27,865 bases of DNA, taken from positions 1 through 27,865 of IMG/VR virus record IMGVR_UViG_3300024299_000045. One strand, 5' to 3'. Under the pieces are notes generated by a model that saw only the letters and a list, made by a program, of their open reading frames with translations, was not told where the DNA came from and ran no database searches. This document shows, one piece after another, positions 1,776-22,631 of the stretch (position 1 is the stretch's first letter; every line of letters begins with the position of its first letter). This stretch comes from a virus. The position numbers were made by a program, and so were the translations under genes.

Positions 1776-4700
1776 ATGGCAATACAAGTAAGACAAAAAA
1801 GAGTAATTGAAGAACAACAAAGTCCTAGTGATATTAATAATCCTGGGGCTTCTTTAGGCTCAGCAGTATTAAGTACAATAGCTCCTATGTGAACTAAAAC
1901 ATTAATAAGTAGAGCGACAGACTTAATGTGAGCTACTCCTGAAGAAATGCAACAAGCCCAAGCTACAAGAGATAGAAAGAGATCCAATACATTAATGGCT
2001 GAATATAGTTATAGTGAGGATTGAGTTAATTATATGGAATGATTATGAAAAAAGGATCAATCATTATTAAATACAATGATTGAAAAAAGAAATCAATATA
2101 TAGATACTCAAGAAAAAGAGTGACCACAATTAAGAGAATATAAACCTGAAGAATTCGATGTAGATTTGCAAAGAAAAATGCAATTAGAAGCGAGATGATG
2201 AGAATGAGCTCTTTGAGAAATATGACAAGCATTAGATTTATGAGTATGACAAGTTATGTCATGAGTATGATGAGCTTTAAGATTTGGATGAGCTGAAGAA
2301 ATTTGAAAAAGTTTTACTGAAACAGGAGAGAAAAGGATGAGGGAAGTTGATTTTCAACATCCAATAACACAAGAATTCGATATAGAACAAATGTGAGATC
2401 CTAGGTTTTGGACTCAAAAATTCCCACAATCATTACCTTTCATGATAGCAGGAGCTGAAACTGCTTGAATATGAGCCTGAGTATGAACTATATGAGCATG
2501 AGTTGTGTGATTATGAACTACAGCTACTATTGTTACATCATGAGTTTTTGCATGATTATCATCTAGAACATTTGAAAGTTATGTAGAAGCTTGATCAACT
2601 TATAACGATGCATTAAAACAATGATTATCTGAAGAAAAGGCTTCTGAAGCTTGAATGGATGTATTCCAAGATAATATGAAGTTAGCAGTAACTGATGCAT
2701 GACAATTTATATCAACATTTGCTCCTATAAAAACTCAATGAATTTATAAACATTTATTAAATACAGCTAAAATCCCAGGGAATGTTGTAGTTGAATGATT
2801 AGAAGAAGTTTATCAATGATATGCTTCTGAAAATGCATTAAGTATAGCTAGTTGAAAATGAGAGGTAAATATAGATGAATATTTAAATAAACCTACTACA
2901 GCAGAAGCGTTTGCTTTATGATGAGTAACTTGATGAGTATTCTGAACAGCCTGAGTTGTTTCGGATTATTTTTGATGATCAGAAATGATTAAAGATGTAT
3001 TAAAAGAACAGAAAAAACAATTAATAGAAAGAGCTAAAAAAGGAGATGATAATTATATAACAGATATTGATGCTTCAATTATTAATGGAGATATATCACA
3101 AGAATACTGACAACAATTAAAAAAATCTTATGTTAGATTAAAGGATTATTTTCTAGAAAAAGCAGAGCCTTATGTAGAGAAATTTGCAGAGTTTTCATGA
3201 TGAAAAATAAATTTAATAACAATAAAAGATCCAAAAAATTGATCTAAAAGTTTTAAAGATGAGGATTGAGAAGTGTTATTTGAAATCCAGGATGATAAAT
3301 CTTTATATACAAAACCACCTGAAGTTGACGAATTCGATAATGATTTAACTTCTAAACTTTGACATATATTAAAACATGATGAATTATATAAAATTTATCC
3401 ATGACTAAAAAATGTTGAGGTAGCATATAGAGGAGATATGAGAAGTAGATGAAGATTTATAGCTACTGTACATAAAGAAACATGAAATATTCATAAAATA
3501 GAAATAGAATTAAATAAGAATGAAACTGATGAACAACAGCATGAAACATTGATACATGAAATACAACACGCCTTGCAAAATAAAGAATGAAGACAATGAG
3601 GAGAAAATATGTGATTTTCTTGAATATCTCTTGAAAAATACCTAAAAAGTAAATGAGAAGCTGAAGCTAGAAAAACAGTAGAAAGATTTAAGTCAGGAGA
3701 TTATAAAGAAGTTTATAGTGTGTTTATAAATGAAGCAGTAGCAAAATATGCATCTATAAATAAAGATAAAATATTGTCAGATAATAATATTACTTCACAA
3801 GTAGAACCTGATGAATTAATGAATCTTGCTAAAGATCATATGGAGAGAGAAAGTAGGATAGATGATATATGAAAAATTAGAAAAGGGGAAATATTTGCTA
3901 ATAAAGAAAAATCAAAAGCATTTAAATTGCTTACAGAATTAGAAACCATACAAGTTGCTAAAGATGAAACAGGTAAGTTTGCAGATACTCAAACGAAAGC
4001 TGACATGGAAGAACTAGGATTAGATCCTAAAGATTTCAAAGATACAGAACAAAATCAAAGAAAAACTGAAATAATGAAAGAGCTTAATGAAATGTGAGCT
4101 ATGAAATGAACTTTATTTTCAGAAAAATTATTGAATACATTTAAGAATTTTAAAGAAAGTTTTCCAAATTTATGAGTATGAACTCATTTCCCAAAAATAG
4201 AAAAAACTAGATCAAGAAAGTCAACTAAAAATCCCGTAAAAGTTTACGGAAAAACTTCAGAAAAAATAAAGGCTAATTTAAGCCAAGAAAAGGGTCAAAA
4301 AATAGACACGAAAAAAAATGAGAAAAAAACACCGATTTCTGAAAAGATAAAAAAAGAAAGAGCAGACAATAAATTAGCTACTGAAATTGCTAAAATATCT
4401 AAACAGCCAAATGTAAATGATATAACTAAATTATTGAATAAACATTGAATTGATATAGTTAAACAAGCAACCGATTTAGCAGTTCAAAAAAATATGATCA
4501 ATAAAGAAGAATCTAAATTCTTTTATGACTCAATAAAATGAAAAACAAAAGAAGTTGCTAAAGCTCCTACAGGTAGAATTAATAATCAACAAAGATTAAA
4601 TATTCTAGATATGTTAGGGTATGATAAGTTATTTAAAAAAGCTGAAGAATTCAAAATTAATATATGACAATTAAGTAAGAGTTTAAAAGAAATATGAGCT

Positions 4701-7700
4701 AGAATGCATATAGTTAATGCTCCTGAATGAGCTAGAGTAAAGCTTCCATTTTCTCTTATGGGTAATAAATCTATGACATTCAAAAATATATTACTTCCTA
4801 TGATAAAGAAAGCTACCAATCAAGGAGCTAAAACATATGTAGAGCCTTTTTGATGAGCTGGTACAGTTTATTATTTCGCAAAAGAAATGATAGAATCAGG
4901 TATTGAACAATTACACATAAATCATTTTGATAAGGAAAAATATGAAGTTGTAAAAGCTATTAAAGAATGAAAAGTAAATGTTATAGGATTAGTAGATTCA
5001 GCATACGATAAAATCATATGAGAAATATGAGTTGAATTAGCACATATACCTGAAATTAAAGAAATAATGGATGAGTATGGAGTAGAAGTATGATCTAAAG
5101 AATTTAAAGAGTTAGCTGAATTATCATTCTACCCACAATATGCTAAACAATTCTTTGAAGAAAGACCTGATACTAAGCTTGCCATAAAATGAGAAACTAC
5201 TACAACATTCAGAGAGTGGTTAAAAGAACATTTATCAGAAGAAGCTAAAAAGAATTGAAAAGTTTTAGAATGAAATGAGCTAGATACAGCAACCGAGCTT
5301 GTTCTAAATGATAGAACAGTCTTTGAAAATAGATATCCTGAAATTAGTAAAAAAATATCAACTGTACTTGATAAATATGATGATATAAATATTAAACCAG
5401 GGGATGTAGAAAGTGCAATGCTAGTTAGTATGTCTAGGCATTTTAGACAAAGATGAGATAGTTGACAAAAAGTAGTATCAGCAAGTTCATGATTCCAAAA
5501 TGTAGTGAATGTAAGAAATAAAATGATAGATTGATTAACTAAATATCAAAAAGTATTTGAAGAATATTGAGATAAAATCAATATATATAACCAGGATGGT
5601 AAAGAATTTATCACAGATATGTGACAGACTTTGAATAATAAAGAAACTATATCATATTTGGATCCTCCATATATCAGAACTACAGGAGTATATATAAAGA
5701 ATCAACCTGCAGAAATAAAATGAGCTCTAGCTGAATATGCAGATCCAGGTAAAATAAATCAATTATTTGAGCCTATGAAAGACTCTATAATGATGTTTAC
5801 TAATGATATAAACTGACCATACTTCGAAACATTAAACACTATGTTAGAATGAAGAATGAGTAAAGATATTATAGGTTATAAAGAATGAACTACTCCAACA
5901 AGTCTTGTGACTACAAATGAAATTGCTGTTAAACCAAAAGATGTAGGATTAAGTTATTATAAAATATTAAAAGATAGTTTTACAAAAGATATTATGAAAT
6001 CATTACAAGAATGATTACTTCCAAAAATATCTAAACAACTATCTAAACATATAGCTAAATTTGAACAACACTTCATGGATTTAATGACAAAGAAGTTTTG
6101 AGATTTAACTAAAATCCAAGATGAAATATTTAAAGGTAAAGAAGCCTTTGATAATCTAGAATCAAGTTTAGATACAGTTGTTTCATGAAAAGATAAACAA
6201 GCTATAATAAGAGAAGCTAAAAAATGGCTTAAAGAAAATAAAGTTAGAGGTTCTGATGTTATAAAGCTTATAGATAAAATCAATAGATTATGGGTAAATA
6301 AACAAGCTAAAGCTAAAGAAGTAAGAAACGAAGTAGATAAGCTTAGAAAACAATCTACAATAGACGTAGAGAGTAAAAAAGCATTCTTTGATTGGTTTAA
6401 TAAAGAGTATACACTTAAAAAAGTTCCTGAAAAAAGAAGTAAAGAAGTTCAAGCAGTAGATAATGTGATGACATGACAAGAGTTTACAGCTAAAGAACTA
6501 GAAATATTTGAAAAATATCTAAAGGATGAAAAATTTTATAATCAAATAGAAGAAGCTAGAAAACAAAGTATTTATAATCTAACAATAGATGAGTTAAATA
6601 CATTATTAGATACAGTTAAATATTATAAAAAAGTAGGTAAGCAATATAGAGAATTTAAGGATCAAGAATTTAATCAAAAAATAGAACAAGAAAGAGTAAA
6701 AGCAGAACCAGGATTAACTAAAATAGAATCAACTAAACCATTAAAAGCTTCTGAAACTATTAAAAAAGAGAGTAGAATAGCAGAATTAGGTATAAAAGCT
6801 AAGATTAGAACTAAAGACGCTTTACTAGATGCTACACCTATGGAATGGTTATTAGATGAAGAATTAAACTTATCTAGAATGGCTTATAATTTCATAGAAA
6901 CTCCTATAAATAAACATAGGGATTATATGGAAGCTATTGCATTAGAATTCGATAAATTATCTAAAGAATTAAAAATAACAAAAGAATGATGGAAAAAAAT
7001 AACATTCCATTGATTATCTAGAAGAAGTGATTGAAAAGGTAAGATTAAATTAATAGCTAGGATGAAAAAAGCCTGAGAAGATCCTACTACATTTTCAGAT
7101 ACTTTAACAGAACAAGCAAGTGATACATATCTTACAAAAGAAGAAAAGGAAATGTATGATTATATGCAATCAGTTTTCAAAGACTTAGGTAAACAAATGC
7201 AAGAAACTAAAATACTTGTAGATAATGAAATGATTACTCTTATGGATGAATATTTCCCTATACAAATGGATTGGGCTAGTAATCAAGATAAATTTGCTAG
7301 TACAATAGATCCAAATACCATAGATAACTGAAGTAATTTATTCAGAAAGACTAAAACAGAACAATGATTTACAAAAGAAGCTACAGGACTTGAAGTAGTT
7401 CCTGAACTTATGTCAGATAAAATATTCAAAACTCATGTATCTAATGTTAGTTATTATACTAATATGCAGAAACCTATTAAACAATTGAATCAAATAGTTA
7501 ATACCTGGTGAAAAGATAAGTTATGAGATTTATGATATAAATTCATGAAAGACTATCTTGACGTAATTGCAAGACAATGAGTTTTATGAGTTCAAACGTG
7601 ATTTGACAGAATAGTGTCACAATGAGTAAGAAACTTCCAATCAGCTGTATTAGGGTTTAATCCAACGACTATGGCTCTTCAAACTTCAGCTATCCTTGAA

Positions 7701-8588
7701 TGAGTAGCAATATGAGGAAATGTAGATTTAGGAGCATATAAAGATATAGTAAAAGCAGTTGTAGGGAAAAAGGAAATATGGGATATGGTTTCAGAAAAAT
7801 CATGAACTGTAAGAAATAGAGAATATAGAAATCTATTCTGAAATACAACTGATAAATTCGATAAATGAATAATGGAGAAATGGAACAAATATTGATTCTA
7901 TGGTATCCAAAAAGCAGATGCTGTACTTTCAAGAGTTCTATGGTACTCAGAATATAAAAGAAGCTTAAAACAAGGTTTAAATGAATCTGACGCAGTATAT
8001 AATGCAGATACTATTATTAAAAAAGCTATGTGACATACTCATTTTGAATGAAAAGCTATGTTCGTACTTAAAAATGAAAGAAAATCTTCATCAGTTGCAA
8101 CTGTATTTCAAAACTTTGTATTGAATCATTCTGCTATGCTTAGATATGGATGATGAAGAAAAGCCCAAAAGAAATATGGTAAAGTATGATGACATATGAT
8201 GGCCTATATGTTCGCATGATTACTATTTGCATTATACGAAGAACTACTGAGAAAAGGATGAAGACTTGTTCATAATCAACAAGACTATAGTTCTCCAACA
8301 TGAAAAGCTATATGACAGTTAATATGATTTGTCCCATACGCATGAATACTTTACTGATGAGCTAGATATTCTAGTATAAATGTACTTACATGATGGAAAG
8401 ATATAAGTGATTGAATTGAAAGACAAGATTGGACTAGGATCATAAAATGATTATGAGTAGTTATGTGAGTATGATGAACTGCAGAATTCGATAGAATCTA
8501 TAAATGATATATAAGAGAAGATAAGAAAAAAGCTCCTCCTGTGAAAAGCTTAAGCAGATGAACTACAACAAGAAAAAAGAGAGATTAA
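1776..8588 (+). CDS. Giant polyvalent protein: metallopeptidase + adenine methyltransferase
   Basis: A single open frame of 2270 codons with no TAA or TAG. Residues about 225-285 are Gly/Ala-rich and hydrophobic. A zinc-peptidase motif HEIQH sits at residues 594-598, followed by a KEGRQGGEN stretch, which matches the metallopeptidase found in phage large polyvalent proteins. A D12-class N6-adenine methyltransferase follows, with EPFGGAG near residue 1025 (both first glycines are TGA) and the catalytic DPPY at 1296-1299. Lys-rich and coiled-coil-like sequence joins the modules. The last 140 residues contain hydrophobic, glycine-rich segments. Polyvalent proteins are thought to be packaged and injected with phage DNA to modify or protect it and to cut host targets. 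Position after the virion gene and before the late terminator supports this. Domain calls are strong; injection is inferred. Confidence 0.85.
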
Positions 8589-8604
8589 TTAATCTCTCTT
8601 TTTT
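8573..8604. terminator. Palindromic bidirectional terminator
   Basis: A perfect 32-base palindrome made of two 16-base arms, AAAAAAGAGAGATTAA and its complement. It gives a stem flanked by A6 on one side and T6 on the other, so it can act on either strand. It contains the TAA stop of the 2270-residue gene (8586-8588) and the TAA stop of the convergent minus-strand gene (8589-8591). Confidence 0.85.
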
Positions 8605-8831
8605 AGTAACTCATACATAGCTGTTCTATATATATCTATAAACTCAGGACTTAATTCAAGAGTCTCAATTCAAGTTTTAAACTTTTCAATCTCTTTATTC
8701 TTATTAGAATCAGACATCTCTCTAGCATTCTTAATATTAAGAACTACTTTATACTTATTGTATAAATCATCAATTCAGATCATGTCTCCATATCTATTTA
8801 TTAACAGACGCATTTTTTGGTTCGTATTCAT
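8589..8831 (-). CDS. Small hypothetical protein, last gene of the early operon
   Basis: 80 residues, starting MNTNQKMRLLINRYGDM and ending ELLKKRD; mostly charged and probably helical. Its stop lies inside the palindromic terminator. Its ATG directly follows the TAA of the upstream 25-residue ORF, suggesting translational coupling. Two of its glycines are TGA. No family recognised. Confidence 0.65.
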
Positions 8832-8909
8832 TTATTCATTAGTTATTCAAAGTAAATCTTGCCTTTCTTTCTTAGCTAGTCTTTTAATGTGTTCTTTTTT
8901 ATTTTTCAT
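8832..8909 (-). CDS. Tiny basic ORF (25 aa)
   Basis: MKNKKEHIKRLAKKERQDL-type peptide, very basic. It has an unusually good Shine-Dalgarno for this phage: GAGGAG (complement of 8914-8919) four bases before the ATG. It overlaps the end of the upstream gene, and its stop abuts the next start. A start further upstream at 8969 would give 45 residues but would lie mostly inside the neighbouring gene, so the short form is preferred. It may be a real micropeptide or only a coupling device. Confidence 0.4.
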
Positions 8910-11906: not shown

Positions 11907-12773
11907 CTAAAGTAATCATTTTTTCTTCGCTTCTGCGATAGCTTCTTCTCAGGTCATAGAATCAATATCCTTTTCAAATCATCATGAATCCTTAATTTTT
12001 CAGATAATAACCACAAAATAAGGAATCTTGTCACTATTCTTCTTCCTGAACTTCATCATAGATAAAATAACAGTAGACCGAAAATCATCCTGTATGGTAA
12101 ATTCAACCACATATCTAACTTGATCAGGAGTAAGTTTATCTACTCTTAGCATTCTACTAACCTCAGAAGCCCAAATCTGTATAATATCATCCTCTGACTT
12201 AGTCTTAAGTGAATAAAGAACAGAAGCGACTTGTCTGTTTATTAAATCCTGAAGAAAAATTTTAGAAATAGAATACTCAAAACTCTCTTCCTTGAAATTT
12301 GAAAAATTTGAAGGTTTATTTTCTGAAAGTAAAGTTGAGGTAGAGTTAAGTAAAGTAAAGTTAAGTAAAGTTAAGTTAAGTAAAGTTAAGTATGTCGGAG
12401 CGTCTACACACTCTCCATACACCCTCCCTAGAGCCTCCCAAAAATAGCTTGGAGATGCCTTTATAATTCTATTGACCCCTGTACGAACGCTAGGATTATC
12501 TATGTTTTGATTCTTTAGAAAGTTGACCATCAAAATCCAATCTTTAACCCTAAAGATTTTACCCCCTAATAGTAACTTATCTAAAATTTTATCCACAAAA
12601 CTTATAGAAATTCAAGTTTCATATGATATTCTTTTACTTCTTATTTCATATAATCACGCTATATTACATAAAGGATTAGATATAAGATATAAAAAAATTA
12701 ACTTTTCATCTGATGTTAACTCTTCTATATAAGGGTCTGTCCAAAATGAATCATTTATTACTCTTTGAGTCAT
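11907..12773 (-). CDS. Phage replication initiator (replisome-organizer-like)
   Basis: 288 residues from the ATG that overlaps the HNH gene's 3' end. The N-terminal 110 residues (FWTDPYIEELTSDEKLIFLYLISNP, then KDWILMVNFLKNQ and NPSVRTGVNRI) resemble the winged-helix origin-binding domain of phage replisome organizers and Lin1244/Lin1753-type initiators. Residues about 127-143 are a low-complexity Leu/Thr/Asn stretch encoded by a pentamer DNA array, as in lambda O where the origin lies inside the gene. The C-terminal part (LTPDQVRYVVEFTIQDDFRSTV) is the kind that contacts the helicase or loader. A start at a GTG 177 bases downstream is possible, but it would cut off the conserved N-terminus. 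No helicase gene is in the window. Confidence 0.75.
12345..12389. repeat. Pentamer iteron array inside the initiator gene (candidate origin)
   Basis: Nine uninterrupted 5-base units of form GTTAA or GTAAA in plus orientation, in the order T,A,A,T,A,T,T,A,T at the variable base. A related GTATG follows. The array lies in the middle of the initiator gene, where theta-replicating phages often keep their initiator binding sites. AT-rich sequence flanks it on the left. Function as origin is inferred. Confidence 0.55.
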
Positions 12774-13486
12774 TGTTTAACTTCATTAAAGAAATAAGAA
12801 AATTTCTGAATACTATATGAGTTTTTAATCTCTCAATCTATATATAGTTGATATAATTCTTTTGTTAATTCAAAATTTAATCTGTAAGACATATTTTCAA
12901 TAGCTTCAGCTCTCCGTATATTGTTATTCAGCAAGGATTCTTCAAAAAATAAATCAATTTCATTAGTCATATTATGATTAGTTCATAAAGGTCATTCCAT
13001 TATACTTAATAATTCCTGACAATATTCTCATCATAACTTAAAATCTTTTTCTAATTCTATTAAAGATTTGTTATATTTATTTATTGGGTCGTAACTAAGA
13101 TATATTCTGTAATTATCTCCTCATAATGATTCAGTATGAAGTATACTTAATAAAGCTATTGTATTTTTATCTATTTTTGAAAATCGCTTTTCATTCCACC
13201 ATTTAAAAAATAAATCAATATGAAGCTTTGTATTCTGGTTTATTACAGTTTTATATAAATCTTCTTTTATATCTTCTATATTGTTTGCTCATTTTCATAT
13301 ATTACATTCAAAACAAGAAGTTATTAAATTATCTAAACTATTGTCTCATCATTTTTTAACAGGAATCTTATGGTCAATTTGTAAATGTATTCCATTCCCT
13401 GCCTTTAATCAACAATATTGACACTCAAAGTTATCTCTATTAAGTATTTGAAACCTTAATTTAGGTTTTATTATATTTCTAGACAT
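12758..13486 (-). CDS. HNH endonuclease
   Basis: 242 residues. N-terminal HNH domain: C22xxC25-G26, then QIDHKIP with H39, KKGGDNSLDNL with N49 and N53, and SCFECNIGKG (C58, C61), so a complete beta-beta-alpha-metal site with a zinc-binding CxxC pair. Most of the glycines in it are TGA. The remaining 170 residues are helical and of unknown role, perhaps DNA binding. It is the first gene after the divergent control region, and its last codons overlap the initiator start, so the two are co-expressed. It could be a homing-type or replication/packaging nuclease; its distance from the terminase argues mildly against a packaging role. Confidence 0.85.
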
Positions 13487-14585: not shown

Positions 14586-14715
14586 AATTTGGATCAGATT
14601 AAAAAAAAGTAATATTACTGACCAAATGACACTAGAAATGGCTGACTTCAAAACTCAATCAGATTATTTCCTATATATATTAAAAAAACATTTTAAAAAT
14701 AAACGTAAAAAATAA
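14551..14715 (+). CDS. Small basic protein (54 aa)
   Basis: MNSIDKKQPDIRIWIRLKKS start and a very basic end (KKHFKNKRKK). It contains no TGA codon. Its start is embedded in the previous gene, and its stop overlaps the RecT-like start as TAATG. Probably co-translated; function unknown. Confidence 0.5.
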   Translation: MNSIDKKQPDIRIWIRLKKSNITDQMTLEMADFKTQSDYFLYILKKHFKNKRKK

Positions 14716-15452
14716 TGACTCCAACTAAAGAAACTCTTGAAACAGCTTCAGATGGACCTAGTCAAGATGACTTGGTAGATATGTTAGCTGAAGAAAAAAT
14801 TGAACAGACTAAAATTGAACTTAGAGAAAAAGCTGAAAAATGGGCTGAAGAAAAAGCAAATGAAAAAGCAATAGCAATAGCTAATAAAGAAAAAATACTA
14901 TCATTAGAACTAAAATCATTTGAAGACCTGAAAACTCAAATCAAGTATTATTCAGATGGATGAGCATTACCAAAAGGATTATCCGAAGCACAAGCTATGA
15001 TGACAGTTCAAATGGGAAAACAAATGTGAATGTCAATGTTCGAAGCATTACAATGAATCTGATATGTAAATGGTAAAATGATTATATATTGAGAAGTAAT
15101 GATATCACAACTTACTAAAGCAGGATATAAAATAGAATTTATAAAAACTGATGCTAATATTTGTGAAGTGAAAATTTCATGAGATAACTGAGAAATAACT
15201 GAAACATTTAAAATAGAACAAGCTAAAAACGCATGATGGGTAAAATCATTCTGACCTTGGAAAGATCAACCACATCTAATGCTTAGATATAAAGCTATAA
15301 GACAATGAATGAAATTCTTATGCCCTGAAGTAATGAGTTGACTTACTACATACGAAGAAGCTGTAACTGAAACTCAACCTAGTATAGAAGCTCCAAATGA
15401 AGTAGAAATACAAAATACTATAACTGATAAATTTGAAAAAAATGAAGGATAG
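14715..15452 (+). CDS. RecT-like single-strand annealing protein
   Basis: 245 residues. After an acidic, Lys/Glu-rich N-terminal 80 residues comes a core beginning LPKGLSEAQAMMTVQMGKQMG. The hallmark follows: SFGPWKDQPHLMLRYKAIRQGMKFLCPEVMSGLTTYEEA in segments, matching the RecT-family pattern of Trp, then MLRYKA, then a PEV-GL turn and an acidic exit. RecT proteins anneal complementary ssDNA left by a 5'-3' exonuclease. A YqaJ-type exonuclease lies two genes downstream, as in many phage recombination pairs. The C-terminal tail is probably a disordered partner-binding region. The remote family assignment rests on motif order and context. Confidence 0.7.
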
Positions 15453-16048: not shown

Positions 16049-16777
16049 ATGATAATACATAACGTAAACCAAGGCTCTCCTGAATGGCTTCAGGTTAGAA
16101 AGGCAACTATTACTTGATCAAGAGTAAAGGCTTTAAAAACTATGCCATTGGATGATGCTAAAATTAAAAAAATAGATTGGAAATCTAATAAAACTAGAGC
16201 CCCAGGATATGTCACTCTTATGAATGAAATGATGGCAGAAGACTTGGCTCCACTTACTGAATGATTCAAAAATGATGCAATGGAACGTGGAAACATATTT
16301 GAGCCTCTAGCAAGAGAAGAATATGAAAAAGTAACCTGACAAAAAGTAGTAGAAATAGGCTTCTGTATACATGATACTAGAAAATATCTAGGATTATCGC
16401 CTGATGGATTCATTGAAACAAACTTCACACTTGAAGATCCAAAAGATGAATCAACTAGAATCCCTATTTACTGAAAATCTATCGAGATTAAATGCCCAGG
16501 ACCTAAAAACCATATCAAGATCATAAACTCCAATAAGATACCTGAAGAATACGAGCCTCAACTTATACATAACTTCTTAGTATGTGAAACACTTGAAGAA
16601 ATGGATTTCATATCTTACAACCCTGATATGTACTTACCACACCTTAGAATTCATATAATTAACGTTAAACGTGAAGATTATGAAAAAGAAATTAACGAAA
16701 CTCTAGTAAAACTAGATGTGTTCTCAGAAGTTTGGAAAGAAAATATTTTAGAACTAACCAATAAAGTATGAACTTAA
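16049..16777 (+). CDS. YqaJ-type phage recombination exonuclease
   Basis: 242 residues, full length. It starts NVNQGSPEWLQVRKATITGS (the conserved GSxEW...R...ITGS entry of YqaJ/lambda-exonuclease-like proteins). Next come MERGNIFEPLAREEYE, then the PD-(D/E)xK core: LSPDGFI with D119 and SIEIKCPG with E146 and K148, and later EYEPQLIHNFLV. Such enzymes resect dsDNA 5'-3' so the RecT-like protein can load. A CTAACC motif lies 4 bases before the ATG. The 3' end overlaps the next gene. Confidence 0.9.
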
Positions 16778-17871: not shown

Positions 17872-17947
17872 CAGAGAGTAAATCAATTGGTAGATGTCTC
17901 GTCTTGGACTCGAGCAGTTGCAGGTTCGAGTCCTGCCTCTCTGACCA
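17872..17947 (+). tRNA. tRNA-Pro (anticodon UGG), CCA encoded
   Basis: 76 bases with a canonical cloverleaf: acceptor CAGAGAG (17872-17878) with CTCTCTG (17937-17943), discriminator A and encoded CCA. The D arm carries the GG pair (AATTGGTA loop), the anticodon loop is CTTGGAC with UGG at 17905-17907, and the T arm is GCAGG-TTCGAGT-CCTGC. The anticodon stem has four pairs and one T-T mismatch. C1-G72 with A73 agrees with bacterial tRNA-Pro identity. It should read CCA and other CCN codons. Confidence 0.9.
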
Positions 17948-19151: not shown

Positions 19152-19475
19152 CTAGCTTCTATACCTAGATAACGCCTTATCGTCTATATCAACCAACTCA
19201 CGCACCATATATTTAGGAAGTTTATCTCCATACATTTTAATTTGATCATCAGACCAGTCCCCTAATTTAGGATATACAAGCATAGACTCAACATCATTAC
19301 TCCAAATATTCTCAAAGTAAATAGCAAAATCATTTATCCCACCACGAATCGCCACCCACCTTAACTTATTACCTGTATTCATAATATTCGTACCACCATT
19401 ATCCCTAAAAGAACCACCTGCTAATATAAAACCAGGCTCAACCTCATCTAGAAGTTCTATTGTAATCTTATTCAT
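19152..19475 (-). CDS. Conserved-looking phage hypothetical protein (107 aa)
   Basis: From MNKITIELLDEVEPG. A core LRWVAIRGGINDFAIYFENI, then YGDKLPKYMVRELVDIDDKA and the end LSRYRS. The WVAxRGGIxDxAIY pattern recalls a small phage protein of unknown function. It contains no TGA codon and uses GGN for every glycine. An upstream in-frame ATG at 19514 with a strong GGAGGG would add a 13-residue hydrophobic leader; the inner ATG is preferred because it follows the TTATTTATT spacer seen before the other cassette genes. The Shine-Dalgarno of the longer form is itself inside a CTCCTA/TAGGAG hairpin. Confidence 0.65.
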   Translation of the reverse strand: MNKITIELLDEVEPGFILAGGSFRDNGGTNIMNTGNKLRWVAIRGGINDFAIYFENIWSNDVESMLVYPKLGDWSDDQIKMYGDKLPKYMVRELVDIDDKALSRYRS

Positions 19476-19548
19476 AATAAATAAGTTAAAAATTAAACAG
19501 AGTATAAACTCCATATTACCCTCCTAAAACTAGGAGAGCAATAGCAAT

Positions 19549-19707
19549 CTACATATCCACAGGAACCTTAAATTTCTCCTCCATCTCTTCACATGCCATA
19601 CTCAATTTCTCATCACTTGGAACCTCACCCACTATACGTGCAACATTACAATTACACTCTTTATTATATTCAATATCAAAATCCACATTTCATAAAGTCA
19701 TTTTCAT
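19549..19707 (-). CDS. Small acidic protein (52 aa)
   Basis: MKMTLGNVDFDIEYNKECNCN start, then VARIVGEVPSDEKLSMACEE. A CxC and one more Cys. One glycine is TGA. It belongs to the minus-strand cassette. No family recognised. Confidence 0.5.
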
Positions 19708-19708
19708 A

Positions 19709-19795
19709 TTACATAAAGATAAAAAATAAATAACTAATAATCCCACATATTGAACATACAATAACTATATAATCTTCAAACTCTAACATATCCAT
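19709..19795 (-). CDS. Tiny membrane peptide (28 aa)
   Basis: MDMLEFEDYIVIVCSICGII then SYLFFIFM: one hydrophobic segment covering most of the peptide. Its start overlaps the end of the upstream tiny membrane gene. Size makes it uncertain, but two consecutive overlapping hydrophobic mini-ORFs are unlikely by chance. Confidence 0.4.
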   Translation of the reverse strand: MDMLEFEDYIVIVCSICGIISYLFFIFM

Positions 19796-19884
19796 ATTTT
19801 ATCAAGTAAACTAAAGAACCCAATATACACTCCAATTAAAACAATCACCCAAGCACACAACAATATTCTCTCATACATCTTCAT
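19783..19884 (-). CDS. Tiny membrane peptide (33 aa)
   Basis: MKMYERILLCAWVIVLIGVY then IGFFSLLDKIWIC: a single transmembrane helix with a basic N-terminus. Overlaps the 28-residue membrane peptide gene by 13 bases. Could act at the host membrane with it. Function unknown. Confidence 0.45.
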   Translation of the reverse strand: MKMYERILLCAWVIVLIGVYIGFFSLLDKIWIC

Positions 19885-19893
19885 AATAATATA

Positions 19894-20019
19894 TTAATAA
19901 CTACCAACAACAGCAATATCCTGCTCCTGCTCTAAAAACTCAACCAATGCATCCTGGACACCCTCATCACACGAGATATGAATCTCACCAACTTCTTCAC
20001 AACTAAGCTCAAATTCCAT
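19894..20019 (-). CDS. Small acidic protein (41 aa)
   Basis: MEFELSCEEVGEIHISCDEG, then VQDALVEFLEQEQDIAVVG. All glycines are GGT or GAG-flanked GGN; no TGA in the gene. Acidic small proteins in such cassettes are often inhibitors of host proteins, but no assignment is possible. Confidence 0.5.
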   Translation of the reverse strand: MEFELSCEEVGEIHISCDEGVQDALVEFLEQEQDIAVVGSY

Positions 20020-20030
20020 AATAATATAGA

Positions 20031-20231
20031 TTAATAATAAATATCCTCCCACTGAGTCCAATAATATTCTTCAGGATTCTCATCGTGCAACTGATTGTAT
20101 TTTTCCTCAGTTATTGGAAAACAAGTCTCACAGCAATAAGTCTCATTATCAATTACAAATCCCTCATCCATAGCACTCCCACATTTCAAACATAAACGAG
20201 TATCTCTCGCTTCTAACTCATTATTAACCAT
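20031..20231 (-). CDS. Zinc-ribbon protein (66 aa)
   Basis: From MVNNELEARDTRLCLKCGSA: two knuckles, CLKCG and YCCETCF, about 20 residues apart, then an acidic Tyr/Trp-rich tail (EEYYWTQWEDIYY). This is a treble-clef or zinc-ribbon layout with an acidic, possibly protein-binding, end. No TGA codon. An in-frame TTG at 20238-20240 would add three residues; ATG is preferred. Confidence 0.6.
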   Translation of the reverse strand: MVNNELEARDTRLCLKCGSAMDEGFVIDNETYCCETCFPITEEKYNQLHDENPEEYYWTQWEDIYY

Positions 20232-20255
20232 AATAACCAAATTAACAAATTAAAC

Positions 20256-20355
20256 AGGCCGTTTAAATCGATTGTAAGCACTTCTTTCAAACCCCACGAC
20301 CAAACATACCCAGGAGTATAGCTCCATCGTACCCACCAAGCAAATGATAGGCACT
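20256..20355 (-). promoter_or_regulatory. Diverged cassette leader element
   Basis: Minus-strand spacer between two cassette genes. It retains GCTTGG near its 5' end and GTGCTTA near its 3' end, the flanks of the four regular elements, but the centre is longer and contains GGAGC-TATA-CTCC-type pairing (20312-20324 region). It looks like an older or rearranged copy. Confidence 0.35.
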
Positions 20356-20360
20356 AGCAA

Positions 20361-20687
20361 CTAAACTATTTGATATCCCATATCAGCAACCATATCCTCT
20401 GTAGAATCAATATCTTCACCAATCATATCAGCAACCATTTCTAGGTCATCAGAATGCAACCAGCAATCTCATAATTCCTTACACCAGTAAGAATCCACAA
20501 GCTCTATTCCATCATCAAACTTCACAATAAACATAGTAGTACCATAAACTCCAGGCTCATCTCCAACAGGCTCTACATCCTCCGTTTCATAAGCAAGTAA
20601 AATGGTTCAAAACATATCTCCATCAAACTCATTATAAATAACATTATCACCCTTATAACCAGGCAACATATTCTTAAGCATACGCAT
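20361..20687 (-). CDS. Hypothetical acidic protein (108 aa)
   Basis: MRMLKNMLPGYKGDNVIYNE, then FDGDMFGTILLAYETEDVEP, then FIVKFDDGIELVDSYWCKEL and a C-terminal repeat: MVADMIGED and MVADMGYQ. Glycine is written with both GGN and TGA (for example FGT and ELGDC), which proves the cassette is still read in the recoded system. Probably a mixed alpha/beta small protein. No family recognised. Confidence 0.6.
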
Positions 20688-20690
20688 ATA

Positions 20691-20745
20691 TTAAAGAACT
20701 AAACTAAGCACCACAGGAACGACCAAATCTTGATCGTCCCAAGCT
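20691..20745 (-). promoter_or_regulatory. Cassette leader hairpin, copy 1
   Basis: On the minus strand: AGCTTGGG, stem ACGATC/GGTCGT (20719-20724 with 20732-20737), then CCTGTGGTGCTTA and an AT-rich run to the ATG at 20687. Stem bases differ from the other copies while pairing is kept. Confidence 0.65.
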
Positions 20746-20747
20746 AC

Positions 20748-20954
20748 CTATAAATTCCCAACCTGGATATCAAATTGACGAGCAATCTCTGAACACATAG
20801 CAACCAACTCCTTCATAGCACAAAGCTCTTCAGGACTCATATCAATCTCATCACCTGCATCCTTAGAAGTCTGAGCCATCATAAGGTCATCATACAAAGC
20901 GTCATAGCAATCCTCCAAATCACCAAGCGTATTTTCATACCTACAATAAGACAT
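20748..20954 (-). CDS. Conserved small phage protein, MSYCRYENT type (68 aa)
   Basis: Starts MSYCRYENTLGDLEDCYDAL, which closely resembles small phage proteins beginning MSYCRFENT...DLxDC. It then has LMMAQTSKDAG and a helical end with CAMKELVAMCSEIARQFD. Four to five Cys are spread through the protein. An ATG at 20963 would add MGN. No TGA codon. The family is conserved in diverse phages and has no known function. Confidence 0.65.
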   Translation of the reverse strand: MSYCRYENTLGDLEDCYDALYDDLMMAQTSKDAGDEIDMSPEELCAMKELVAMCSEIARQFDIQVGNL

Positions 20955-20988
20955 ATTTCCCATAATAATAATATTAGAATAATAAATT

Positions 20989-21027
20989 AAGCACCACCAG
21001 GAGCATGAATAATCATGCACCCAAGCT
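20989..21027 (-). promoter_or_regulatory. Cassette leader hairpin, copy 2
   Basis: On the minus strand: AGCTTGGG, stem GCATGA/TCATGC with a four-base loop (21003-21018), then CCTGGTGGTGCTTA. Arms are entirely different from copy 1 but perfectly paired. Lies just after one gene's stop and before the next start. Confidence 0.7.
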
Positions 21028-21029
21028 AA

Positions 21030-21296
21030 TTAATTTAATTTCTCATCCAGTAAATCCGAAATCTCGTCATCACGCATAATAATCACGTCCTCACGAGTTT
21101 GCAACTCCTGGTCCACCTCTAGGATGTAAGCAAAACCATCAGCAACAGCACGAGTAAACTTAACACTACCCTCCAACCTAGCACCCTGCCCAGTAATAAC
21201 CCAAATAGCTTCGTAAACAGCTCTACTACCCCCATAATGACTAACAACCGATAACTGAGCTCAGTCTAAGTCAAGCTCAACAGTAAAATCTCACAT
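21030..21296 (-). CDS. Hypothetical protein (88 aa)
   Basis: MGDFTVELDLDGAQLSVVSH, then YGGSRAVYEAIWVITGQGAR and VADGFAYILEVDQELQTRED. Second codon is TGA. Most other glycines are GGT. Probably beta-rich; no family recognised. Confidence 0.55.
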
Positions 21297-21320
21297 AAAT
21301 AATAAATAAGGAACTAAAAT

Positions 21321-21358
21321 AAGCACCACAAGGTCACCCAAATTGAGTAACCCAAGCT
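21321..21358 (-). promoter_or_regulatory. Cassette leader hairpin, copy 3
   Basis: On the minus strand: AGCTTGG, stem GTTACTC/GGGTGAC (21333-21339 with 21345-21351, two G-U pairs), then CCTTGTGGTGCTTA. Same flanks as copies 1 and 2, different arms. Confidence 0.65.
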
Positions 21359-21360
21359 AC

Positions 21361-21576
21361 CTAAATAAAATCCAAACAAGAACCATCAAACCAATCAGTA
21401 ACACCAGGCTCCTGGTCCACCCTATACATCCAAACCCCTTCAGTCTCCTCCCAGTCAACAACACCAACAACAGCAGGATATGAATAATAAGCACCACCAA
21501 CAACAGAATCCGTAGTAACCAACACTTCGTCACCAACACGAAAACGAGCAGGCGAACGCAAGTCAATAAATCACAT
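21361..21576 (-). CDS. Small SH3-like protein (71 aa)
   Basis: From MGFIDLRSPARFRVGDEVLV: then YPAVVGVVDWEETEGVWMYR and VDQEPGVTDWFDGSCLDFI. The sequence FRVGDEVLV...YPAVVGVV...YRVD is typical of a small SH3/KOW-like barrel. Second codon is TGA; the other glycines are GGN. Possibly binds nucleic acid or a host protein. Confidence 0.55.
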
Positions 21577-21599
21577 AAGCAATAATAAAGAACTAAGAT

Positions 21600-21640
21600 A
21601 AGCACCACCAGGATGACCACACAAGTGACCACCCCAAACT
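21600..21640 (-). promoter_or_regulatory. Cassette leader hairpin, copy 4
   Basis: On the minus strand: AGTTTGGGG (variant of AGCTTGGG), stem GGTCAC/GTGGTC with loop TTGT (21615-21630, two G-U pairs), then CCTGGTGGTGCTTA. Again different arms with pairing kept. Confidence 0.6.
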
Positions 21641-21646
21641 GCCAAC

Positions 21647-21877
21647 CTAAGCACTAGGAACCAACAACATCTCCTCTCAATAAGACAACACGTCCTCATC
21701 AGACCAACCAACAGCAGGAGCAACACCCAACACATGACCTGAAACCGAAACCAACAACAACCCAACCAACTCAACGTCAGCAACGTCACCATCCAAGGAG
21801 AAGTCACCCTCCACACGTACCACACGAGGACCTACAACAGGACCACGACCCACAAAAGAACCAACAGCAATAGACAT
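21647..21877 (-). CDS. Hypothetical Val/Gly-rich protein (76 aa), first cassette gene
   Basis: MSIAVGSFVGRGPVVGPRVV, then RVEGDFSLDGDVADVELVGL and GWSDEDVLSYGEEMLLVPSA. Ten of its eleven glycines are GGN and only one is TGA, the reverse of the structural genes. Its base composition is much richer in G+T on the coding strand. No family recognised. Confidence 0.5.
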
Positions 21878-22631
21878 AAGCAAAAAATGTTAAGAGCAAC
21901 ACACACAAGCAACAAAGCAAGGTGTAAATAGAGCGAAGCACACGACTTCGAGAACTGACAACAGTATACATAAGAACATAAACCTGTCCAGTGTCAATGG
22001 TACAGTAAGCTAAGCCCAGCTTGACTTCTAGAAAAAATGTAGTTTGGGAATAGGCCTTGTTCACATCGTTTGAACAACGACTCGAGTTTGTCAATGCAGT
22101 GGTAAGTCGTGACAAGCTAGGGTAAGCCACCACCCTTGCAGTAAGCCAATGCTAGAGCCAAATAAGACAGGCCACAAGGTAACTAAGCTGAGCCACAAGC
22201 CAAACAGGTCACATAACGGTTCATATGTGTACCTTACTATCGCTTAGGTAAGCCATTACACACTAAACAAGCACACAGGCCAGGCACAAGACCAGGCAAA
22301 CACACGAAAAAACGAGCCAGGATATGAATATCTGAATTCTGCAAACCTCTCGCCAAAAAAAAATTGCAAAGATACTACAACCACCTACTAAAACTATATC
22401 AAAAAAATTAAGTCACCTATATACGAAACATACACAGTTATTTAAACGCCTGTAAATTTTGAGAGGAGATCGTAATGTAAGATTAATTTATAGGAATGAG
22501 ATTTAGACTGTTTTGGGTGGTATAAAAATATGGATAAAGAACTAACCAATAATACCTAATAGAAAAGAAAGAGGGATTGATTTCGGGGTTTAGGGGGTAT
22601 TTAAGCTTAAAAGTCCATTTTCGGATTCTAA
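21878..22631. other. Long non-coding stretch upstream of the cassette
   Basis: About 750 bases with no convincing gene on either strand. The half next to the cassette (to about 22330) is relatively G+C-rich and contains GTAAGCC three times (22122, 22141, 22248) and GTAAGCT once (22005), a word that resembles the conserved flank of the cassette hairpins. The rest is AT-rich and carries a 12-base palindrome TTTAAGCTTAAA at 22600-22611 and a CTAACC at 22542 with no start behind it. It is probably a long leader or control region for the minus cassette, perhaps with decayed cassette units. No promoter could be fixed with confidence. Confidence 0.5.

Follow-up and report, generated by a model that had tools for sequence, protein, structure and literature searches.

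The minus-strand small-gene operon of a stretch of viral DNA of 27,865 nt (IMG/VR record IMGVR_UViG_3300024299_000045, positions 1 to 27,865; hereafter the window) carries at its gene junctions a repeated structured element of 50–55 nt, termed the unit, of which six copies were found (Table 1). Each unit was predicted by folding to consist of a 9 bp outer stem (P1), an internal loop and an inner stem (P2) of 12–14 bp. Judged by length, position and internal loop, the units are probably intercistronic RNA processing sites of the type known from phage T7, with a predicted RNase III cut at RU^GG; we put the probability of this interpretation at roughly three in four.

Anatomy, covariation and position of the units

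An initial annotation of the window had described four spacers in which identical flanks enclose a hairpin whose arms differ from copy to copy and still pair. All four (units 1–4) were confirmed on the minus strand, each between a stop codon and the next ATG, the variable arms pairing in every case, and for each unit the predicted fold was more stable than those of dinucleotide-shuffled sequences (z = −3.7, −2.1, −2.8 and −2.5). The description needed revision in two respects. The copy number is six instead of four, units 5 and 6 having flank letters that differ from those of the other copies. Moreover, the flanks are present but are not single-stranded, as they correspond to the strands of P1 paired to each other plus the conserved internal loop, and in unit 4 their letters differ (AGTTTGGG where the others have AGCTTGGG). 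The core of the loop is formed by R10 C11 U12 on the 5′ side and by R46 U47 G48 G49 on the 3′ side (RCU/RUGG), yielding a C-G pair, a bulged U and a purine-G mismatch. When 19 copies were compared, the letters of P2 proved variable whereas the internal loop was near-invariant, with U12, G48 and G49 present in all 19. The covariance models of Rfam 15 gave no match to the units.

A descriptor search that specified nothing but the shape (outer stem, GC, inner stem, GG, outer stem) detected units 5 and 6 and copies in related phages, against zero to two chance hits per shuffled locus. Covariance model R1, built from ten copies of this search with units 1–4 left out of the training, recovered these four at E = 2e-8 to 6e-5, and the element is thus not a product of chance; five further unseen copies, in the phages L013 and L102, were recovered as well. 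A search of this genome and its relatives with a second model (R2) gave 22 copies, six in the window, three in L068, one in L069, four in L102 (one of them weak, E = 0.007) and eight in L013, all of them on the strand that encodes the small genes of the operon. These relatives had been located via their terminase (identity 77% for L028 and L068, 60% for L069, 57% for L102 and 45% for L013). In L008 a hairpin occupies one homologous junction, yet it did not match the covariance model, and the near-identical strains L006 and L010 have identical units that add no covariation. Apart from near-identical strains and L028, a flank-based pattern scan of viral contigs returned mostly chance hits. Under strict filters, 353 and 380 Patescibacteria genomes contained no copies outside the L102 contig, searches for the terminase TerL with L102 and L069 as queries revealed nothing new, and annotated phages offered only TerL relatives at 32% identity or less.

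The covariation first noticed within this one genome was borne out across the 19 copies, in which standard pairs make up 413 of 440 cells (94%), with 89 G-U combinations against a single A-C. The alignment returned by the R1 search, in which two spurious hits were also included, has 93.9% of its cells paired and 21 of its 24 pairs with changes in both partners; its covariation score of 0.829 compares with 0.237 (standard deviation 0.022) for shuffles and with no more than 0.19 when the structure was slid. As R1 was seeded by a search for pairing, most weight rests with the nine copies outside its seed, where standard pairs fill 190 of 204 cells, 46 of them G-U, and A-C does not occur. Even the C-G pair of the core is replaced by U-A, on both sides together, in two later copies of L013. 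The preponderance of G-U over A-C fixes the acting strand: the element acts as RNA of the gene-sense strand and not as a DNA cruciform.

With few exceptions, intergenic copies have the upstream stop codon inside the 5′ strand of P1 or in contact with it. The distance from the end of the unit to the ATG is 19–21 nt in the window type and 26–45 nt where an additional hairpin (P3, see below) intervenes; unit 1 fits this spacing provided that translation begins at the second in-frame ATG. The next start is further off behind unit 5 and behind the copies at L068 4018 and L069 7523, where another element follows, and also behind a copy in the L068 leader. At junctions without a unit, for example in L008, the stop codon is followed by about 20 U-rich bases and the ATG, so that the unit is a module situated between the stop codon and the ribosome landing site. 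An intrinsic terminator was considered and rejected, as the bases after the stem are mixed with no direct T run and the genes continue in the same direction.

Likeness to RNase III sites of T7-type phages

In phage T7 the long early message is cut by host RNase III into single-gene pieces, and these intercistronic sites, cleaved at UAU^GA, are textbook knowledge; by position, the corresponding cut in the units would fall at RU^GG. Like the units, T7-type sites are intercistronic elements of about 50 nt that lie in one orientation in a small-gene operon, one copy also being found in a leader, with an outer stem that begins at the stop codon, an asymmetric internal loop with an RCU/RUGR core including the C-G pair and the bulged U, an inner stem of about 9–14 bp and some 19–28 nt to the next start. 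The RNase III stem-loops annotated in the T3 and phiYeO3-12 records are 40–56 nt long, those of T3 40–54 nt, and end 12–36 nt, mostly 19–28 nt, before the next start, and several of them start at the stop codon or just past it, as do T3 R0.5 and R1, which start at the stop codon itself and end 21 and 19 nt ahead of the next start, respectively. The RCU/RUGG core of the units corresponds to the ACU/AUGA or ACU/AUGG core of the T3/T7 sites R0.3, R0.5 and R1.1. The core of T3 R0.5 folds as A-C-U/A-U-G-A with the same C-G pair, and R0.5 and unit 1 share one dot-bracket pattern, in which the outer stem is followed by a single mismatch, a single C-G pair, a small loop and the inner stem. R1.1, located between T7 genes 1.0 and 1.1, has been described as a 60 nt RNA with a 4/5 nt asymmetric internal loop that is cut into pieces of 47 and 13 nt (PMC6121014).

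Model R2, although built from Gracilibacteria phages only, was also run on T7, T3 and phiYeO3-12. On 8 kb of T3 with filters off it gave just two hits, both at annotated RNase III sites: R0.5 at 1358–1409 (annotated 1359–1408), with the core in register, and R1.1 at 6006–6050. The top four hits in the 56 kb of the three phages together were T3 R0.5, T7 36817–36867, T3 R1.1 and phiYeO3-12 R1.1, three of which are annotated RNase III sites; the T7 match, with the core ACU/UAUGG, lies at the gene 18/18.5 junction and presumably represents R18.5. Unrelated phage DNA, used as a control, contained one R2 hit of at least 14 bits in 85 kb. The enzyme itself (TIGR02191) is encoded by 38 of 40 host-class genomes, among them the metagenome-assembled genome (MAG) that carries L102.

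Several points weigh against this interpretation. The E-values of R2 for the T7 and T3 hits are weak (0.4–0.95 in 56 kb), and their weight lies in the coincidence with RNase III sites. A reciprocal model of the T7/T3 sites (R3) did not pick out the units; R3 is a narrow model of near-identical sites that tests kinship of sequence rather than function, and the likeness is accordingly one of structure and loop, not of demonstrated descent. The invariant U12, G48 and G49 exceed the sequence conservation that RNase III normally requires, and no counterpart of P3, which is found at the predicted cut in the units, was seen in T7. There are further differences. The stems vary freely in the units whereas T7/T3 sites share sequence; next to the C-G pair the units have R·G where T7/T3 sites mostly have A·A; and the last G of the core is usually A in T7 sites, though it is G at the T7 18/18.5 junction. 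The host, unlike that of T7, is a bacterium of the candidate phyla radiation (CPR) using genetic code 25, and cleavage of the units is a prediction.

According to the proposed mechanism, the operon transcript would fold at the gene junctions into P1, internal loop and P2, and host RNase III would recognize about two helix turns interrupted by the RCU/RUGG loop and cut once, on the 3′ side at RU^GG. The upstream mRNA would then end in the P2 hairpin, and the downstream mRNA would start with GGAG or GGUG, be capable of folding into P3 and then carry, ahead of the ATG, a U-rich stretch free of structure, P2 and P3 possibly protecting the respective mRNA ends. The reading as a processing signal, one of the possibilities raised initially, has held up well.

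Gene expression in phages of uncultured CPR bacteria is almost unknown, and we know of no intercistronic RNase III sites reported from them; the papers searched for such an element in Gracilibacteria phages likewise contained no report. That this loop and geometry recur in a distant phage with another genetic code suggests deep conservation or else strong convergence on RNase III. The 22 copies provide a comparative consensus of such sites together with a base-exact prediction of the cut, and the units can serve as an annotation marker for the small-gene operons of these phages.

The P3 hairpin and alternative explanations

From G48 onwards the sequence GGAGN...N′CUC(U/C) is predicted to form P3, a hairpin that starts exactly at the predicted cut and is mutually exclusive with P1, with which it shares bases. 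P3 is a new feature beside the T7-type RNase III sites. The pairing score of heads with their own tails was 9.10, as compared with 7.70 (standard deviation 0.40) for permuted combinations, of which 1 in 2000 was as high, and 5.86 with shuffled tails, where none of 500 reached the score of the own pairs. The base after GGAG covaries with its partners in both P1 and P3 (GAGA/UCUC, GAGU/ACUC, GAGC/GUUC). P1 is predicted to be at least as stable as P3, and when P1 is blocked, GGAG pairs downstream and P3 forms in most copies. For the window copies with GGTG, fold predictions show a weak P3 or none.

The shared bases and the stop codon in the 5′ strand of P1 raise the tentative and rather doubtful idea of a two-state device, in which ribosomes finishing the upstream gene would choose between P1, an RNase III substrate, and P3, which is not. 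If true, this would amount to mRNA processing under the control of translation at one junction after another of a phage operon, gating both the cut of the message and the release of the next gene. That the units are instead simply a ribosome-controlled RNA switch, with P3 forming when a terminating ribosome opens P1 and P1 prevailing in untranslated RNA, thereby coupling the expression of neighbouring genes, seems unlikely. Such a switch accounts for the covariation of the base after GGAG, agrees with the same anatomy and might even control the RNase III cut; however, neither fold hides the ATG region, the GGTG copies of the window hardly form P3, and the T7-like internal loop is left unexplained.

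Three other explanations explain less. A near-invariant loop within variable stems would suit a binding site through which a phage or host protein represses or activates translation, but the resemblance to T7/T3 sites in loop and geometry speaks against this, and the scanned proteins, most of which have no assigned family, yielded no RNA-binding family; we consider such an operator quite improbable. Still less can be said for an antiterminator in which nascent RNA modifies RNA polymerase at each junction. The put sites of phage HK022 are, like the units, cis-acting structured phage RNAs, and the copy in the L068 leader and the occurrence of structured RNA in an early-type operon would fit; put, however, comprises two stem-loops near early promoters that act on RNA polymerase, with no repetition at gene junctions (PMC9378689), whereas the units are predicted to fold into one long interrupted stem and an exclusive P3. 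The recombination seam of a gene-collecting cassette, also envisaged in the initial annotation, can practically be set aside: genes flanking the units do differ among relatives, but within one genome the units share only short cores, too few bases for a seam, all copies have a single orientation, and compensatory changes with a G-U bias denote selection on RNA pairing and fit RNA rather than DNA.

The parallel drawn to the extended start-associated sequences (ESAS) of cluster K mycobacteriophages did not stand either. Start-associated sequences (SAS) and ESAS are, like the units, repeated elements with inverted repeats before the starts of small non-structural genes, but in ESAS the inverted-repeat sequence is conserved, together with the 13 bp SAS, and departures from it do not support RNA pairing (PMC3203893), whereas the arms of the units differ fully and the pairing is kept.

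A role as translation signal found no direct support. A Shine-Dalgarno reading of GGAG/GGTG was rejected, as these bases are largely paired in both predicted folds and about 30–56 nt away from the ATG. The same U-rich stretch precedes the ATG at junctions that lack a unit. The 16S tail of the L102 host retains UCUCC. Among 16S 3′ ends of the host class (L106–L109) the anti-Shine-Dalgarno tail varies, being intact (CACCTCCTTT), reading GGACTATCTCCTT in the host of L102, or degenerate (CACCTTTGT, CACCATTCT), which suggests that Shine-Dalgarno use has been lost in some members.

The operon and its surroundings

The small-gene operon (19152–21877, minus strand) adjoins nuclease and terminase genes on the plus strand. 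The window reads TGA as glycine, glycine being the commonest residue opposite TGA codons in terminase homologues and TGA and GGN being mixed in 9 of 17 all-glycine columns. The phage was assigned to Gracilibacteria as hosts, tiny bacteria in which TGA likewise encodes glycine (code 25), and the related L102 is a contig of a Gracilibacteria MAG (SAAG01000022.1).

Table 1. Coordinates of units, P3 hairpins, flanking genes and leader in the window
Feature	Position	Strand	Predicted cut	Basis or remark
Unit 4 (P1/internal loop/P2), between genes 21647–21877 and 21361–21576	21596–21648	−	between 21607 and 21606	R1 27.5 bits, E 6e-5; R2 48.3 bits; fold
Unit 3, between genes 21361–21576 and 21030–21296	21317–21366	−	between 21328 and 21327	R1 E 2e-8; R2 54.7 bits
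Unit 2, between genes 21030–21296 and 20748–20963	20985–21035	−	between 20996 and 20995	R1 E 1.9e-5; R2 49.5 bits
Unit 1, between genes 20748–20963 and 20361–20687	20702–20753	−	between 20713 and 20712	R1 E 6.7e-6; R2 49.4 bits
Unit 5, after gene 20361–20687	20315–20367	−	between 20326 and 20325	Descriptor search; R2 51.1 bits
Unit 6, between gene 19549–19707 and gene with ATG 19475–19473	19502–19554	−	between 19513 and 19512	Descriptor search; R2 57.3 bits
P3 hairpin GGAGUUUAUACUCU at predicted cut of unit 6	19499–19512	−		Predicted fold
P3 hairpin GGAGCUAUACUCC at predicted cut of unit 5	20313–20325	−		Predicted fold
Operon leader, conserved non-coding	21878–22355	−		Alignment
First small gene of operon, 76 aa	21647–21877	−		L008 and L068 homologues likewise trailed by hairpin or unit
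Small gene, 71 aa	21361–21576	−		Family search: no family
Small gene, 88 aa	21030–21296	−		Family search: no family
Small gene, 71 aa	20748–20963	−		phrog_8760, family of unknown function
Small gene, 108 aa	20361–20687	−		Homologues in L068 and L069

Unit 5 has a counterpart in L068 (4018–4069), located after the homologous gene. Behind unit 5 (window about 20250–20314, minus strand) lies a second repeated intergenic element, AGGTAT..GGTCC..TATGTNAAAGNNCTNNCACAGG, which was also observed at L028 about 960–1030 and at L069 7472–7511, 8457–8496 and 6179–6208, and recurs in the leaders and operon ends of relatives. In L013, the eight units at 6045–8865 of the minus strand differ in P2 but hardly in P1, which is mostly TTAAATTTT, and the small genes between them have no match in the cassettes of the other relatives.

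The leader is conserved in L028, L069, L008, L102 and L012 and shows a box AGGTTYGCA..nTTCAG ahead of a hairpin ACATAA...TTATGT; a promoter and some 0.5 kb of structured RNA may lie within this leader. Between 19200 and 22200 the G+C content climbs steadily from 0.31 to 0.47 toward the 5′ end of the operon, and this trend, together with a strong strand skew, sets the region apart from the rest of the genome. Elsewhere, the window encodes RecT (14715–15452), a YqaJ nuclease (16049–16777), an HNH protein (12758–13486), a tRNA-Pro(TGG) at 17872–17947 and, on the plus strand at 1776–8588, a protein of 2270 aa without any Pfam match.
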